From contig JAIOJF010000009.1 in NCBI GenBank assembly GCA_019911965.1, positions 1-64,000 of the forward strand: a DNA stretch of 64,000 nt, given 5' to 3'. The notes beneath the pieces were generated by a model, which did no database searches, was not told the origin of the DNA, and worked only from the letters and a program-made list of their open reading frames with translations. Both the position numbers and the translations under genes were made by a program. Every line of letters begins with the position of its first letter. Within the stretch, counting starts at the first letter, position 1. Positions 59,319 through 64,000 of the stretch are shown piece after piece. This DNA is from Paracoccaceae bacterium. Lineage in GTDB: Bacteria; Pseudomonadota; Alphaproteobacteria; Rhodobacterales; Rhodobacteraceae.

Positions 59319-60395
59319 ATGGCCGATTTCGGAGCACAGATCGAGAAATCGAAGAAGGATGTGGCGGCAGCGCAGAGCAAGATTGCCGAACTGACCAGCG
59401 CGATTGAAACCGCGCGCAGCAAGCTGGACAGTGGCGATGACATCCTGGTCAATATCGAAACCGCGACGCTGGACGATGTCCATGCCCATGCTGAGTTGAT
59501 GAATGCCAATATCGCCGAACTTATCATGGGGCTGGACGATGTGACCGCCGGGTTTTCCCGGGATTTCGACGAGATGCGCAACAAGACCGGCTGGGAAAGC
59601 TTCGTCGGCTTCTTCTCGCGCGCGCGCTCGGATGCCTTGCGCCAGGAACGCATGCGCACCGCCTCGATTGACGACAAGCTGCAGGACCTGATCGCCAAGT
59701 CCAATGTGATCGTGGCTTTGCTGGAAGGCCAGTTGAACATCCTGAACACCCATAAGGGCCGGGTGGAAACCAATCTGAGCGAAACGCTGGACGAGCGCGA
59801 GGCAGTGGTTGGCGCGTTGGAAGGGCTGAGGGCCGAGATCATGGCGCTCGATCCCAAGATCATCGAACTTGAAAACCGCATCGCGGTGGAACAGGACGCC
59901 GCCAAGCGCACCAAGCTGGAAAGCGAGCTGGCGGCGCTGAATTCGCGCTATAACGAGATGGTGCAGGACGAACAGGTCAAGCTGGCCAACAGCCAGACGC
60001 TGGAACGCTATATCGAGACCGGCAAGACCTGGGTGGATTCGCTGCAGAACCAGGCGGCAACGCAGATGGTGCTGATCAACAAGCTGCAGACCGACACCAA
60101 GCAGCGGGTGGTGCTGTATGATGCGCTGACCAAATCGCTGAAAACCGCGCAGCAGCAGGACGTGGCGCATCGCATCAACGAGATCGGGGTGGAGACCGAC
60201 AAGGAAGCCCAGACCGCGATGGCCGCCATCGGGTCGGCCACCAATACCCGCATGGCCGAGATGATGGAAAAGCACGAGGACCACATGGTATTCGCGCGAA
60301 AGGTTCTGGAGGAAAAGGCGAAATCCGACGAACGCTTCGCGCGGCGCTTCCAGAAGATCGTCGAAAAGCACGACAAGAACCTGTACGGGGCCTAA
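59319..60395 (+). CDS. Long coiled-coil protein, first gene of uncharacterised AAA+ operon
   Basis: A 358-residue protein, start MADFGAQIEKSKKD. It is helical almost throughout: heptad-rich parts at about 5-45, 130-215 (LEGLRAEIMALDPKIIELEN...KLESELAALNSRYNEMV) and 215-330. It has no signal or TM segment. Broad features recall toxic-anion-resistance (TelA) and PspA-like helical proteins, but I see no decisive motif and do not assign a family. It ends with TAA directly followed by the next gene's GTG. Confidence 0.7.
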   Translation: MADFGAQIEKSKKDVAAAQSKIAELTSAIETARSKLDSGDDILVNIETATLDDVHAHAELMNANIAELIMGLDDVTAGFSRDFDEMRNKTGWESFVGFFSRARSDALRQERMRTASIDDKLQDLIAKSNVIVALLEGQLNILNTHKGRVETNLSETLDEREAVVGALEGLRAEIMALDPKIIELENRIAVEQDAAKRTKLESELAALNSRYNEMVQDEQVKLANSQTLERYIETGKTWVDSLQNQAATQMVLINKLQTDTKQRVVLYDALTKSLKTAQQQDVAHRINEIGVETDKEAQTAMAAIGSATNTRMAEMMEKHEDHMVFARKVLEEKAKSDERFARRFQKIVEKHDKNLYGA

Positions 60396-61526
60396 GTGGT
60401 CAGCACCGCCCTAACCGACGATCACCTGGCGCTGGCCGACGCGCATGCCACGCGGCGCTATTTCGCCAAGTTCGACCGCATTCTCGGCCATCTGGACAAG
60501 GTGGCGGAACTGGCGGCGGCCTCCGACCGGCTGGGCGCGATCGAACTCGATGTGCTGCGGGCCTATCTGCAGGGCCTGTCGGGCACGTTCGAGGCGTTGT
60601 CGAACAAGTATCTGATGGCGGGGCGGGTCTCGGCCCTGTTGCCGCGATCCTTGAGCATTGATGTGACCGACAGCGGCTTTCCGGTCTATTCGGAATTGCT
60701 GCAGATGGCCAATGACGCGCATCAGGTGGATCAGCATCTGGGCAATCTGGCCCCGGCGGCGGATCTGAAAAAGGACATGGTGCGCCATATCCTGAACGAG
60801 CTTGAGGTGCCGTTGCAGTTGCAGTTCGCGCTGTCGCAGCGGCTGTATTACGAACGGCTGGCGAAGCGGAACCTGTTCTGGGCGCAGAACGATCCGGCGA
60901 TTGTCTGGCTCGGCACGGATGATGACGAGCGGCGGCGCTACGTGGTGCATTGGGCGGTCTATGACAGCCGGGTCAATATTCCCACGATCTATCTGATGTT
61001 GCTGGACGATACCGGCTCGACCGCGCTGCCGCGCGACGAAAAGCGCTGGCCGAGGGCGCAGAGCCATCTGATGGCGCAGTCGGTCTCGGCGCTGAAGCTG
61101 TTGACGATTGCGCAGGGCTTTGACCGGGATTTCGATCATCTGCACCCGAAATTGCTGCGCCGCATCCATCTGGGGCCGATGTACAGCCATGCCTTCACCC
61201 GCCAGACCGGGCCGCTGGCCGGTATTCTGGAAGACGCCAAAGGCGGTGCCGGTAACGACTGGGCGCTGGCATGGACGGTGGAAACCCTGCTGTCCGAGCG
61301 TGTCGAGACTGAACGGAAAGGCTTTTTCGGTTCGGTCGAGCGCGAGATTTTCCGGCTGAACCATTTTGGCCGTACCGAGGATGAAACCGGCGCGAGCGAG
61401 GTGCGCCGTTCCATCATCCTGCCGCAGCGCCCCTACCAGGTGCTGGAAGAACGCGATCCGCCGGGCTTCCGGGGGGTGCGGAAATATGTCGTCAGTCCTT
61501 CAGGTCAGATATTGAGCTACAAATGA
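60396..61526 (+). CDS. Uncharacterised 376-residue protein of AAA+ operon
   Basis: The start is GTG at 60396, directly after the preceding stop. The protein is soluble, with an N-terminal helical half (about 1-150; DRILGHLDKVAELAAASDRL, ELLQMANDAHQVDQHLG) and a second part containing RYVVHWAVYDSRVNIPTIYLMLLDD and RRIHLGPMYSHAFTRQTG. It has no motif I recognise. Its stop overlaps the lipoprotein start by 4 nt. It may bridge the coiled-coil protein and the ATPase. That is inference. Confidence 0.7.
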   Translation: MVSTALTDDHLALADAHATRRYFAKFDRILGHLDKVAELAAASDRLGAIELDVLRAYLQGLSGTFEALSNKYLMAGRVSALLPRSLSIDVTDSGFPVYSELLQMANDAHQVDQHLGNLAPAADLKKDMVRHILNELEVPLQLQFALSQRLYYERLAKRNLFWAQNDPAIVWLGTDDDERRRYVVHWAVYDSRVNIPTIYLMLLDDTGSTALPRDEKRWPRAQSHLMAQSVSALKLLTIAQGFDRDFDHLHPKLLRRIHLGPMYSHAFTRQTGPLAGILEDAKGGAGNDWALAWTVETLLSERVETERKGFFGSVEREIFRLNHFGRTEDETGASEVRRSIILPQRPYQVLEERDPPGFRGVRKYVVSPSGQILSYK

Positions 61527-61843
61527 AACACCTCCTGTTCCCCACATTCGCCGCCCTTGCACTGGCCGCCTGCACGCCGCAAGAGGTTGTCCCCTTCGAT
61601 GCCGCCAGTGCGGCGCTGCACGATGCTCACCCAAAGGGTAGTGCCGCCTCGGCGCTGGTGGCCGATCTGGCGGCGGATGGCTATGTGCCGGCCCGCGCCT
61701 TCCCGGATTCGCCGCAGCATTGCCTGAAACAGCAAAGCCCGGCCCCGCTGATCGGCGCGGTGTTCCGCACGGTCTGTTACGATCAGGACGATCAGGGCCG
61801 GATCACCCGCCTCAGCCTCTATCAGATCGCGGCCGGCCTATGA
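61523..61843 (+). CDS. Small lipoprotein of AAA+ operon
   Basis: A 106-residue protein with a signal peptide and lipobox (FAALALAAC, Cys about 16). The mature part has two Cys (SPQHCLKQQ, FRTVCYDQ) that could form a disulfide, and it ends RITRLSLYQIAAGL. It overlaps the genes on both sides by 4 nt, so it is translated with the ATPase. A lipoprotein in such an operon hints at an envelope role for the whole set. I do not recognise the family. Confidence 0.75.
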   Translation: MKHLLFPTFAALALAACTPQEVVPFDAASAALHDAHPKGSAASALVADLAADGYVPARAFPDSPQHCLKQQSPAPLIGAVFRTVCYDQDDQGRITRLSLYQIAAGL

Positions 61844-63786
61844 GCAATCCGCAGAACCTGATGGAACTGAAAGAGGACGCGATCCGCCTCCACTATGCCA
61901 GCGCGGCGGCGATGCTGGCGGGGTTCGATCACACGCCCCGGATTGCCCGTGCCAAGACAGCGGACGCGCCCGAGGACCGTTCGCCGGGTATTCCCGGGCG
62001 GCGCGGCCGGTTCCGCCAGACCACGCCGGGGCTGGTGACGCGATCCACCGCGCGGCCCGAAGGGGTGCATCTGGTCGACCGTGTGGAAGGGGCCGATGGC
62101 GACGATCCCTTGCCCTCGCCGATGCAGGCGACGGTTCTCAGGGCGCTTCGCCGCGCGCTGGCGGTGGCCCATACGATCAGCGATATGTACGAGGAACAGA
62201 CCGGCCTCGGTGACCTGAAGCGCGACAATCTGGCGGGAAGGCTGCCGCGCGAACGTTCGGCGGCATTTGCCGAGGGGCTGGCGGCCTCGTCGCTGATCTC
62301 GCTGTTCGTGTTCGCCTCGATGACGCGGTTCCTGATCACCGCCAGCGCGGCGGAGCCGGAACAGGGGATCGAGATCGGCGCGGTCGAGGAGATCCTGACC
62401 GACAACCGGATCGACGCGCTGCATGGCGCGCTTTGGGAACTGGATCAGGATATCGCCGCCTTCGCCGATACCGAGGCGCGGCTGGTCGGTGTGGTCGCCG
62501 CCTATTGCGACAAGCTGATGGAAAAGGTCGCGCTCCGGGCGCAATCGGCGCCACGGCTGGAGGCGTTCAACAGCGTTGCCTACCGCGTCGAGGCGGATGA
62601 TTTCACCATCGACGGCTTTACGCCGCAGACCCGCGCGCGATCAACCGTGCTGACCATGAGCTTCAAGACCCCGCATCAGGTGGTCGGCAACCATATCGCC
62701 AAATACCAGGCGATGAAGCTGTCCAAGATGCTGATGGCCTATGATTTCGAGCGCAAGCTGAACCCCTTTGCCGAGCTTGGCGGCTTCATCTTCACCTTCA
62801 TGGGCGACGGCAAGCCGGGCACCGGCAAGACCACGCTGATCCAGATGATGGCCGGGCTGATCAATGGCTATTGCACCAATGCCGGCTATCCGTTCCGTTA
62901 CCAGAATCTCAGCACCGAAAGCATCGACAGCTATCAGGGCAAATCGGCGCAGAATGCCAAGGCGTTCATCAACAATATCATTGATCCCGGCGTGATCGGC
63001 TTCGGCACGATCGACGATATTGATCAATTGGCCGGCAAGCGCGGGGATCGGCAATCGAGCGCCGGGCAATTGGAAATCACCGCCGTCTTGATGGAAAGTT
63101 TCGCCGGGGCCAATACGGTGGTGCGGGGCAATTGCACCTTCGGGATGTTCTCGAACTATCCCGAGAATGTCGATGACGCGCTGCGCCAGCGGGCGGGGGC
63201 GCGGTTTCTGGTGGACGGGCCGCAAACCACCGAGGATTACATCGACATCCTGCATCTGCTCTTGGGCAAGAACCACGCGATTCCGGTCGGCAACCATGAC
63301 CTTTACGCCGCGCAGGAGATCAAGAAGGCGGTCACCGCCTCGTTTGAAAGCCATTCCGTGCCGCACGAGGATGGCCTGAAAGCGGTGTTCGCCGAGGTCA
63401 ACCAGCGGATCGGCGGGCTGGACACGCTGGCGCGGCTGGGGGCCTATCTGAAGGCGATCCAGGACGCGGACGAGCGGTTCACGGGCCGCGCCATCAAGAA
63501 CATCACCGACGCGGTGAAGGTCCGCGCGCTGGATGTCGAATTGCCGGATGAATGGATGGAAGAGCCCGACCTGTTCCTGTTCAAGCCCTACGACGAAAAG
63601 CTGGGGATGATCCGCGAGATGACCAGGCCGATCACGGTCGAGATGCTGATCCAGGAAATCAACCGCTACGCCGACAGCGAGTTTCGCTATGCCGACAAGT
63701 CGGACGAAGCCGCAATCGCCAACGCGGTGCGCGACATGGGCCGGATGGAAGAGGCCAAGCGGCGGTATCTGGAGGGGAAGGGGTGA
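61840..63786 (+). CDS. AAA+ ATPase of uncharacterised operon
   Basis: A 648-residue protein. The N-terminal about 270 residues are Arg/Pro-rich then helical (including a hydrophobic stretch SLISLFVFASMTRFLITAS at about 150). The AAA+ module has Walker A GKPGTGKT (324-331), a Walker B-like VIGFGTIDDID (385-395), and a likely Arg finger in ALRQRAGARF (about 447-456), followed by a helical lid (GRAIKNITDAVKVRAL). This is a single ring-forming ATPase of no class I can name. It is the last gene of four with tight overlaps. Confidence 0.85.
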   Translation: MSNPQNLMELKEDAIRLHYASAAAMLAGFDHTPRIARAKTADAPEDRSPGIPGRRGRFRQTTPGLVTRSTARPEGVHLVDRVEGADGDDPLPSPMQATVLRALRRALAVAHTISDMYEEQTGLGDLKRDNLAGRLPRERSAAFAEGLAASSLISLFVFASMTRFLITASAAEPEQGIEIGAVEEILTDNRIDALHGALWELDQDIAAFADTEARLVGVVAAYCDKLMEKVALRAQSAPRLEAFNSVAYRVEADDFTIDGFTPQTRARSTVLTMSFKTPHQVVGNHIAKYQAMKLSKMLMAYDFERKLNPFAELGGFIFTFMGDGKPGTGKTTLIQMMAGLINGYCTNAGYPFRYQNLSTESIDSYQGKSAQNAKAFINNIIDPGVIGFGTIDDIDQLAGKRGDRQSSAGQLEITAVLMESFAGANTVVRGNCTFGMFSNYPENVDDALRQRAGARFLVDGPQTTEDYIDILHLLLGKNHAIPVGNHDLYAAQEIKKAVTASFESHSVPHEDGLKAVFAEVNQRIGGLDTLARLGAYLKAIQDADERFTGRAIKNITDAVKVRALDVELPDEWMEEPDLFLFKPYDEKLGMIREMTRPITVEMLIQEINRYADSEFRYADKSDEAAIANAVRDMGRMEEAKRRYLEGKG

Positions 63787-64000
63787 GGGTGCTGGTGATC
63801 TTGCCGCAATCCCGTCCCCCGCGCCGGGACCTCGACGCCGCAAGAGGCCCCGGAGCAGGTCCGGGGATGCGGCCCTCGCAACACCGGAGCGTTGCACGAT
63901 GACCCTCCGCACCCCCTCGCATTCCCGGCCCCCGCGCCGGGACCTCGCCACCGCCAGAGACCCCGGAGCGGGTCCGGGGATGCGGACCACCACCGGAACC
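63787..64000. other. 3'-terminal intergenic region with two repeats
   Basis: After the ATPase stop there is no supported gene to the window edge. The frames seen are short and Pro/Arg-rich shadows of a repeat. Two REP-like copies occupy most of it. Confidence 0.6.
63816..63985. repeat. Two direct copies of a 57-bp REP-like element
   Basis: Copies at 63816-63872 and 63929-63985 match at 52 of 57 positions. Each contains the palindrome CCCCGGA / TCCGGGG with a 5-nt spacer (63848-63866 and 63961-63979). Sequences of this palindrome type are frequent between alphaproteobacterial genes. Confidence 0.8.

Follow-up and report, generated by a model that had tools for sequence, protein, structure and literature searches.

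A co-inherited operon of a coiled-coil protein and a classical AAA ATPase with a variable gene slot, from a Paracoccaceae bacterium

The window analysed here, positions 1-64,000 of contig JAIOJF010000009.1 of a Paracoccaceae bacterium (assembly GCA_019911965.1), carries near its end the first genes of a real, co-inherited operon whose core consists of four genes, named P1, P2, P4 and P5; contig numbering equals window numbering and is continued past the window end. P1 (59319-60395, + strand) encodes a 358-residue all-helical coiled-coil protein, P2 (60396-61526, +, GTG start) a 376-residue soluble protein whose family was not recognised, P4 (61840-63786, +) a 648-residue classical AAA ATPase with its own conserved N-terminal region of about 300 residues, and P5 (64335-65699, +, past the window end) a protein of the DUF6638 family. 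The operon is apparently undescribed so far: the gene set is not described in the portions of PMC11237479, PMC11188069, PMC7240154 and PMC11218997 covered here, no mention of DUF6638 was found in the literature searched, and DUF1523, the family of a further operon protein (P7), was met there by title in unrelated papers only. We propose, at a probability of a little under two in five (about 0.38), that the products may form one inner-membrane machine in which P4 would handle a P1 polymer, ESCRT-III/Vps4-like in its working but neither a member nor a descendant of that family. We offer this reading as a specific, testable inference from sequence rather than as a result.

The original prediction had described a unit of four genes in this window. 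The coordinates of the open reading frames (ORFs) bear out four genes on the + strand with junctions of 0 nucleotides, ATGA and ATGA: the TAA of P1 directly abuts the GTG of P2, and P2/P3 and P3/P4 overlap by ATGA. However, the operon runs on past P4, through P8, P5, P6 and P7. The claim that only the ATPase carries a recognised domain held up, since Pfam gave AAA in P4 only and nothing above cut-off in P1, P2 or P3. The lipoprotein P3, in contrast, was rejected as a core gene, there being no tblastn match to it at E up to 0.01 in any of 80 related loci (0/80). What stands of the proposed undescribed envelope system is an AAA/coiled-coil operon that includes membrane proteins, whose genes are inherited together and which appears to be undescribed; the lipoprotein does not belong to its core.

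A scan of a species-level genome collection confirmed at least 584 stretches encoding a relative of P4, and the 80 related loci were kept from these for gene-order counts, with gene presence scored by tblastn. P2 was found in 80/80 loci, P1 in 78/80 and P5 in 77/80; P1 and P2 preceded P4 in 78/80 and 80/80 loci, and P5 followed it in 77/80. The two loci without P1 are a contig end and a locus with a gap or masked stretch, while two of the three without P5 are contig ends. The third, a Roseovarius operon (L050), has no DUF6638 or DUF1523 match despite 8 kb of downstream sequence. Outside the core, P7 was found in 71/80 loci, P6 in 62/80 and P8 in 1/80. At the genome level, an even sample of 398 genomes across the phylum had DUF6638 in 26 and the N-terminal region of P4 in exactly these 26; P1 was present in them and in 3 further genomes, whose copy is a distant, solitary paralogue. 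The order P1-P2-P4-P5 is kept in Rhodobacterales, rhizobia and Vibrio, so that the conserved-neighbourhood check asked for by the original prediction, once run, found the core genes together across orders. We counted the same-genome co-occurrence and the fixed order of P1, P2, P4 and P5 in favour of one machine.

In the arrangement that we propose, the operon products would act together at the cytoplasmic face of the inner membrane. P1 would be a helical hairpin protein, turning at its LDP sequence, that self-assembles or coats the membrane, and the P4 ring would grip a MIM1-like amphipathic helix at the C-terminus of P1 and spend ATP pulling out P1 subunits, as Vps4 does to ESCRT-III. P2 and P5 would be adaptors and P6/P7 membrane anchors of the complex. 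The small transmembrane (TM) proteins and lipoproteins encoded between P1 and P2 and between P2 and P4, together with the gene cassettes between P4 and P5, would be accessories expressed along with the machine, either adapting it or benefiting from its expression.

Evidence that bears on a candidate contact between P1 and P4 lies in the sequence of P1. With one proline in 358 residues, 31% charged residues and no predicted TM segment, P1 is consistent with the long cytosolic helical rod of the original prediction, and it has a conserved LDP at Pro179, a putative turn. Near its C-terminus, residues 337-348 (60327-60362, +) form a MIM1-like motif, [DE]xxFxxRFxx[IV]. MIM1, to which the MIT domain of Vps4 binds in ESCRT-III, has the consensus [DE]xxLxxRLxxL[KR], and the USP8 MIT domain prefers [DE][LIF]x{2,3}R[FYIL]xxL[LV] (PMC12057046, in the portion covered here); the P1 tail does not match the strict leucine consensus and resembles the latter published MIT-binding variant. 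A relaxed pattern, [DE]xx[LIVMF]xxR[LIVMF]xx[LIVMF], defined after seeing the sequence, was sought in the C-terminal 40 residues of near-full-length P1s encoded in operons, which comprised 8 copies from elsewhere and all but two of the 78 locus copies, those two being cut by contig ends. It was present in 84/84 tails and nowhere else in those proteins; as background, it was present in 2/90 further families of proteins encoded at the loci and in 0.9% of tails after shuffling. D337, F340, R343 and F344 were identical in 15/15 diverse operon copies.

Four solitary P1 paralogues were seen (L129, L130, L131 and L171), three in genomes where no P4/P5 was found and one at a locus without P4/P5. None of them (0/4) had the relaxed pattern, and SLKTA, the core of the best-conserved P1 block (residues 266-291; 60114-60191, +), was lacking in 4/4; in the three that were aligned, a 22-residue gap (270-291) takes the place of this block. 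We counted the lack of the relaxed pattern and of the best-conserved block in these solitary copies in favour of the proposed machine. The solitary P1 adjoins a thymidine kinase gene in L171 (rhizobial) and, by sequence reading, in L129 and L131.

P4 matched the Pfam AAA family (PF00004) with an E of 5e-12; 12/12 relatives matched this family too. Its Walker A, GDGKPGTGKT (residues 322-331; 62803-62832, +), reads GDGxPGTGKT in 88/88 relatives, and the GKPGTGKT that had been placed at residues 324-331 is indeed there. The Walker B, GFGTIDDID (residues 387-395; 62998-63024, +), reads GFGTxDDxD in 88/88. A TM scan gave one marginal hydrophobic stretch, at residues 141-159. In a single-sequence search of the PDB, P4 found i-AAA protease, fidgetin-like protein, Vps4 and katanin, weakly (best E 5e-6, Vps4 0.004). 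The suggested likeness to PspF-type ATPases did not survive: neither a sigma54 activation domain nor a helix-turn-helix domain was matched by Pfam in the 12 P4 relatives, whose matches besides PF00004 were weak and mostly of P-loop type.

The ESCRT-III/Vps4 analogy, also drawn in the original prediction, gained the MIM1-like motif at the P1 C-terminus and failed to gain an MIT domain in P4. The two systems are alike in that a classical AAA ATPase is encoded with a helical, proline-poor partner bearing a MIM1-like C-terminal motif; they are unlike in that P1 has no detectable Snf7/PspA homology, no MIT domain was found in P4, P4 has Asp at the usual Walker B Glu, and P2 and P5 are extra partners. 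Within the portions of the sources covered here, PMC11237479 describes transfers of Vps4-like proteins to bacteria with an unrelated TPR/6TM partner, archaeal systems are treated in PMC11188069 and PMC7240154, and MIM2 is treated in PMC11218997.

Several of our own observations weigh against P4 acting on a P1 polymer in this way. The MIM1 pattern was loosened post hoc, with the P1 sequence already in view, and its windows rank only 93rd-137th of 347 for P1 conservation. The tail motif of the three aligned solitary paralogues is degenerate and not gone: single positions have N for D, K for R, or V/L for F, and an aliphatic residue is missing at 347. The non-polar amphipathic segments of P1 are modest, so that its membrane binding is only putative. 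None of the Pfam families Snf7, PspA and TelA was matched by any of 18 P1 relatives (E up to 0.1), and homology of P1 to PspA was not supported, at an hhalign profile probability of 5.5%. On the side of P4, Pfam found no MIT domain in the 12 relatives at E up to 1, a negative with which a diverged three-helix MIT-like bundle may be compatible. A profile search of the PDB (E up to 0.001) found i-AAA protease, proteasomal and VCP-like ATPases and not Vps4. In 88/88 relatives Walker B has Asp where AAA proteins usually carry the catalytic Glu; this trait is fixed in the family and may lead to slow hydrolysis. Finally, P6 and DUF1523, the candidate anchors, had no match in the three regions read from genomes of family f10 (rhizobial by likeness to named plasmids), nor in the Vibrio copy.

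In a different arrangement, P4 would be a chaperone-type AAA protein that assembles or disassembles a complex containing P2 and P5, with P1 as a scaffold and not a membrane polymer. P2 and P5 are linked as tightly as P1, the large conserved N-terminal region of P4 could bind any of the three, and membrane binding by P1 is only putative, all of which would fit. This arrangement nevertheless leaves unexplained the MIM1-like tail of P1 and its loss in copies without the ATPase, and we consider it rather doubtful.

The original prediction had also named a fold match of P1 to PspA, ESCRT-III or TelA as support. By profile comparison P1 matched neither PspA nor TelA: in addition to the PspA value and the Pfam negatives given above, homology to TelA was rejected at an hhalign probability of 0.7%, and a PDB search returned no credible solved-structure relative of P1, P2 or P5. 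Phage-shock systems of the PspA/Vipp1 type are like the operon in combining a coiled-coil protein, an AAA protein and small membrane proteins, and neighbourhoods of PspA and Snf7 with AAA ATPases are described (PMC11237479, in the portion covered here); they differ in that P1 has no PF04012 match and that the presence of PspA is independent of the operon. The operon was accordingly rejected as a PspA replacement, PspA (E up to 0.001) being found in 6/14 operon-positive and 3/13 operon-negative own-family genomes. In Stappia sediminis, one PspA-like gene (L054, 12673-13386) lies a short way beyond the DUF1523 gene on its downstream side, the only such case among the loci scanned.

TelA itself occurs in the genome of the window, at a separate locus (L151) with TerC-like and SPFH-like genes, named by sequence reading. 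That locus resembles the operon in having a helical cytosolic protein and envelope-type neighbours and differs from it in its partners and in the lack of P1-TelA profile similarity. Placing the operon within a TelA/tellurite-stress (Ter) network would draw on the TelA in this genome and on its presence in 7/7 own-family operon-positive genomes of a 200-genome sample. The low hhalign probability and the separate locus argue otherwise, as do the presence of TelA in an operon-negative genome (G135) and the failure to find it in an operon-positive one (G123), and we disfavour this explanation as highly improbable.

The core genes also recur outside the family of the window genome. Family f10 genomes carry diverged P1-P2-P4-P5. 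Thymidine kinase and DUF2333 genes flank the operon genes in Sinorhizobium meliloti pSymB, and the same pair encloses a solitary P1 paralogue in Rhizobium leguminosarum pSK03. In rhizobia, where DUF1523 was not found, a gene for DUF2333 comes after P5 in L169 and after the solitary P1 in L171; its product may be a substitute membrane partner there. The order P1-P2-P4-P5 is kept in Vibrio vulnificus, and the annotation of a V. parahaemolyticus record agrees with it, P1 and P5 having been found there by tblastn. P1 and P4 are about 70% or more identical between Rhodobacterales, Stappiaceae and Robiginitomaculaceae/Hyphomonadaceae. In a quick tree of P4, with support by SH-aLRT only, Stappiaceae, Robiginitomaculaceae/Hyphomonadaceae and a Rhodospirillales metagenome-assembled genome fell inside a 23-row set with Rhodobacterales and the window (support 100); this mixing of orders suggests that P4 has passed between them. 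A phage origin was rejected, as 50,697 phage records yielded no P4 match with an E of 1e-5 or below.

The operon also contains slots in which the gene content varies. The gap between P4 and P5 exceeded 250 nucleotides in 54/77 loci and was 250 nucleotides or less in the other 23/77, while gaps above 250 nucleotides were found in 28/78 loci for P1-P2, 5/80 for P2-P4, 0/62 for P5-P6 and 0/61 for P6-P7. Mechanical ORF calling gave 135 slot ORFs in 94 families, spurious ones included. In 35/54 P4-P5 slots the first forward ORF starts -8 to +5 nucleotides from the P4 stop, in 45/54 the longest forward ORF is longer than the longest reverse one, and in several (for example L003, L010, L013, L014, L026, L034 and L081) the end of a slot ORF overlaps P5 by 4 nucleotides. 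These arrangements suggest that P4-P5 slot genes are often translationally coupled. Computed over the whole slot, non-coding bases included, GC content averages 6.5 points below the core, and 35/54 slots were more than 5 points GC-poorer, compared with 0/77 for P2 (Mann-Whitney p about 1e-10). Unrelated and often GC-poor genes, some of them of phage-defence type, were seen at this one exact position in L003, L010, L014, L016, L034, L037, L078, L081 and others. The P1-P2 slot (for example L009, L045, L064 and L081) holds varied small TM proteins, mostly of about 66-140 residues and mostly dissimilar to one another. The slots of the window genome are occupied by P3 and P8, which are not GC-poor.

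The Pfam and PADLOC scans of slot genes took in 32 hand-chosen sequences: besides P3 and P8 themselves, these were 3 ORFs of the P2-P4 slot and 27 of the larger ones of the P4-P5 slot. The P4-P5 matches above the Pfam cut-off that could be placed were Mrr (L078), AbiJ_NTD4 (L081), putAbiC (L037), DUF2971 (L016) and thioredoxin (L065); DUF4145 (L034) and HATPase (L014) fell below it. PADLOC matched type IV restriction, PDC-S02 and PDC-S31, with one member each, possibly the same member; we take the two PDC labels to denote candidate-defence models. Most of the 27 P4-P5 slot ORFs had no match, defence or other. In S. meliloti the same slot holds an annotated endonuclease-domain gene and an insertion element.

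A serious rival is an anti-phage (conflict) platform, in which P1, P2, P4 and P5 would sense or signal and the P4-P5 slot would supply an effector that can be swapped, for instance a nuclease, a protein of Abi type or a small TM protein. The frequency of filled slots, the coupled position of their first ORFs, the low GC content and the restriction-, Abi- and PDC-type matches (with Mrr and DUF2971) would all suit it, as would the patchy presence of the operon, found in 14/27 own-family genomes, and the tree that suggests transfer between orders. Against this, 23/77 loci have short slots, most scanned P4-P5 ORFs lack a defence match, and the matches that were obtained come from a scan of slot ORFs alone; the high identity of P1 and P4 between orders points the same way. 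The PADLOC scan of core proteins, which covered P1-P4 and not P5-P7, gave no strong match: those of P1 had E values of 9e-4 or weaker, P2 and P3 had none, and the TRIP13 model matched the AAA domain of P4 alone (E 2e-5). Across NCBIfam, PADLOC and PHROGs, matches to P1-P4 were to coiled-coil, P-loop or AAA-domain regions, or were weak and taken as chance. On balance we judge such a platform unlikely. Distinctly more improbable, in our view, is a broader version of the ESCRT-like reading, in which the operon would be an independently evolved bacterial ESCRT-III/Vps4 counterpart and a modular platform: its own AAA ring would handle a coiled-coil polymer unrelated to PspA by way of a convergent MIM1-like tail, and the P4-P5 slot would admit genes acquired horizontally, thereby joining membrane remodelling and phage defence in one operon.

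P2 had no PDB match at E up to 1. P3 (61523-61843, +) is a 106-residue accessory lipoprotein in the P2-P4 slot, not conserved as a gene, with a LAAC sequence ending at residue 17 (61562-61573, +) that we take to be a lipobox and a weak LPAM_1 match below cut-off; a distant relative (31% over 78 residues) occupies the same slot in L029. P5 matched DUF6638 (PF20343) with 722.9 bits (gathering score 27) and P7 (65984-66685, +) matched DUF1523 (PF07509) with 209.2 bits (gathering score 23), families to which Pfam assigns no function. P7 and P6 (65701-65976, +), both past the window end, have 2 TM segments each. After a poorly conserved linker, P5 carries PWG within its last 12 residues in 58/73 relatives. 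The SPFH-like protein (by sequence reading) of the TelA locus carries AGPWGTR, like this PWG tail.

The P4-P5 slot of the window genome starts at 63787-64000 (+) with two copies of a GC-rich repeat of 71-76 nucleotides right after P4 (63800-63875 and 63918-63988, 89% identical), to which only one further partial match, of 30 nucleotides, was seen elsewhere in the genome. The accessory gene P8 follows past the window end (64006-64338, +; 3 TM segments). After P7, the genes on the same contig are of cobalamin type, by reading of their ORFs.

The operon matters for how little of it has been named: of its six recurrent proteins, two are members of DUF families and, the AAA domain apart, the other four (P1, P2, the whole of P4, and P6) belong to no named family. 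The survey of its slots also gives a list of candidate slot genes, and the P4-P5 slot offers a small natural experiment in the insertion of accessory and defence genes into a conserved, translation-coupled operon. If it is true that P4 acts on P1 through the tail motif, the operon would represent a second, unrelated bacterial solution to the AAA-driven handling of helical polymers.

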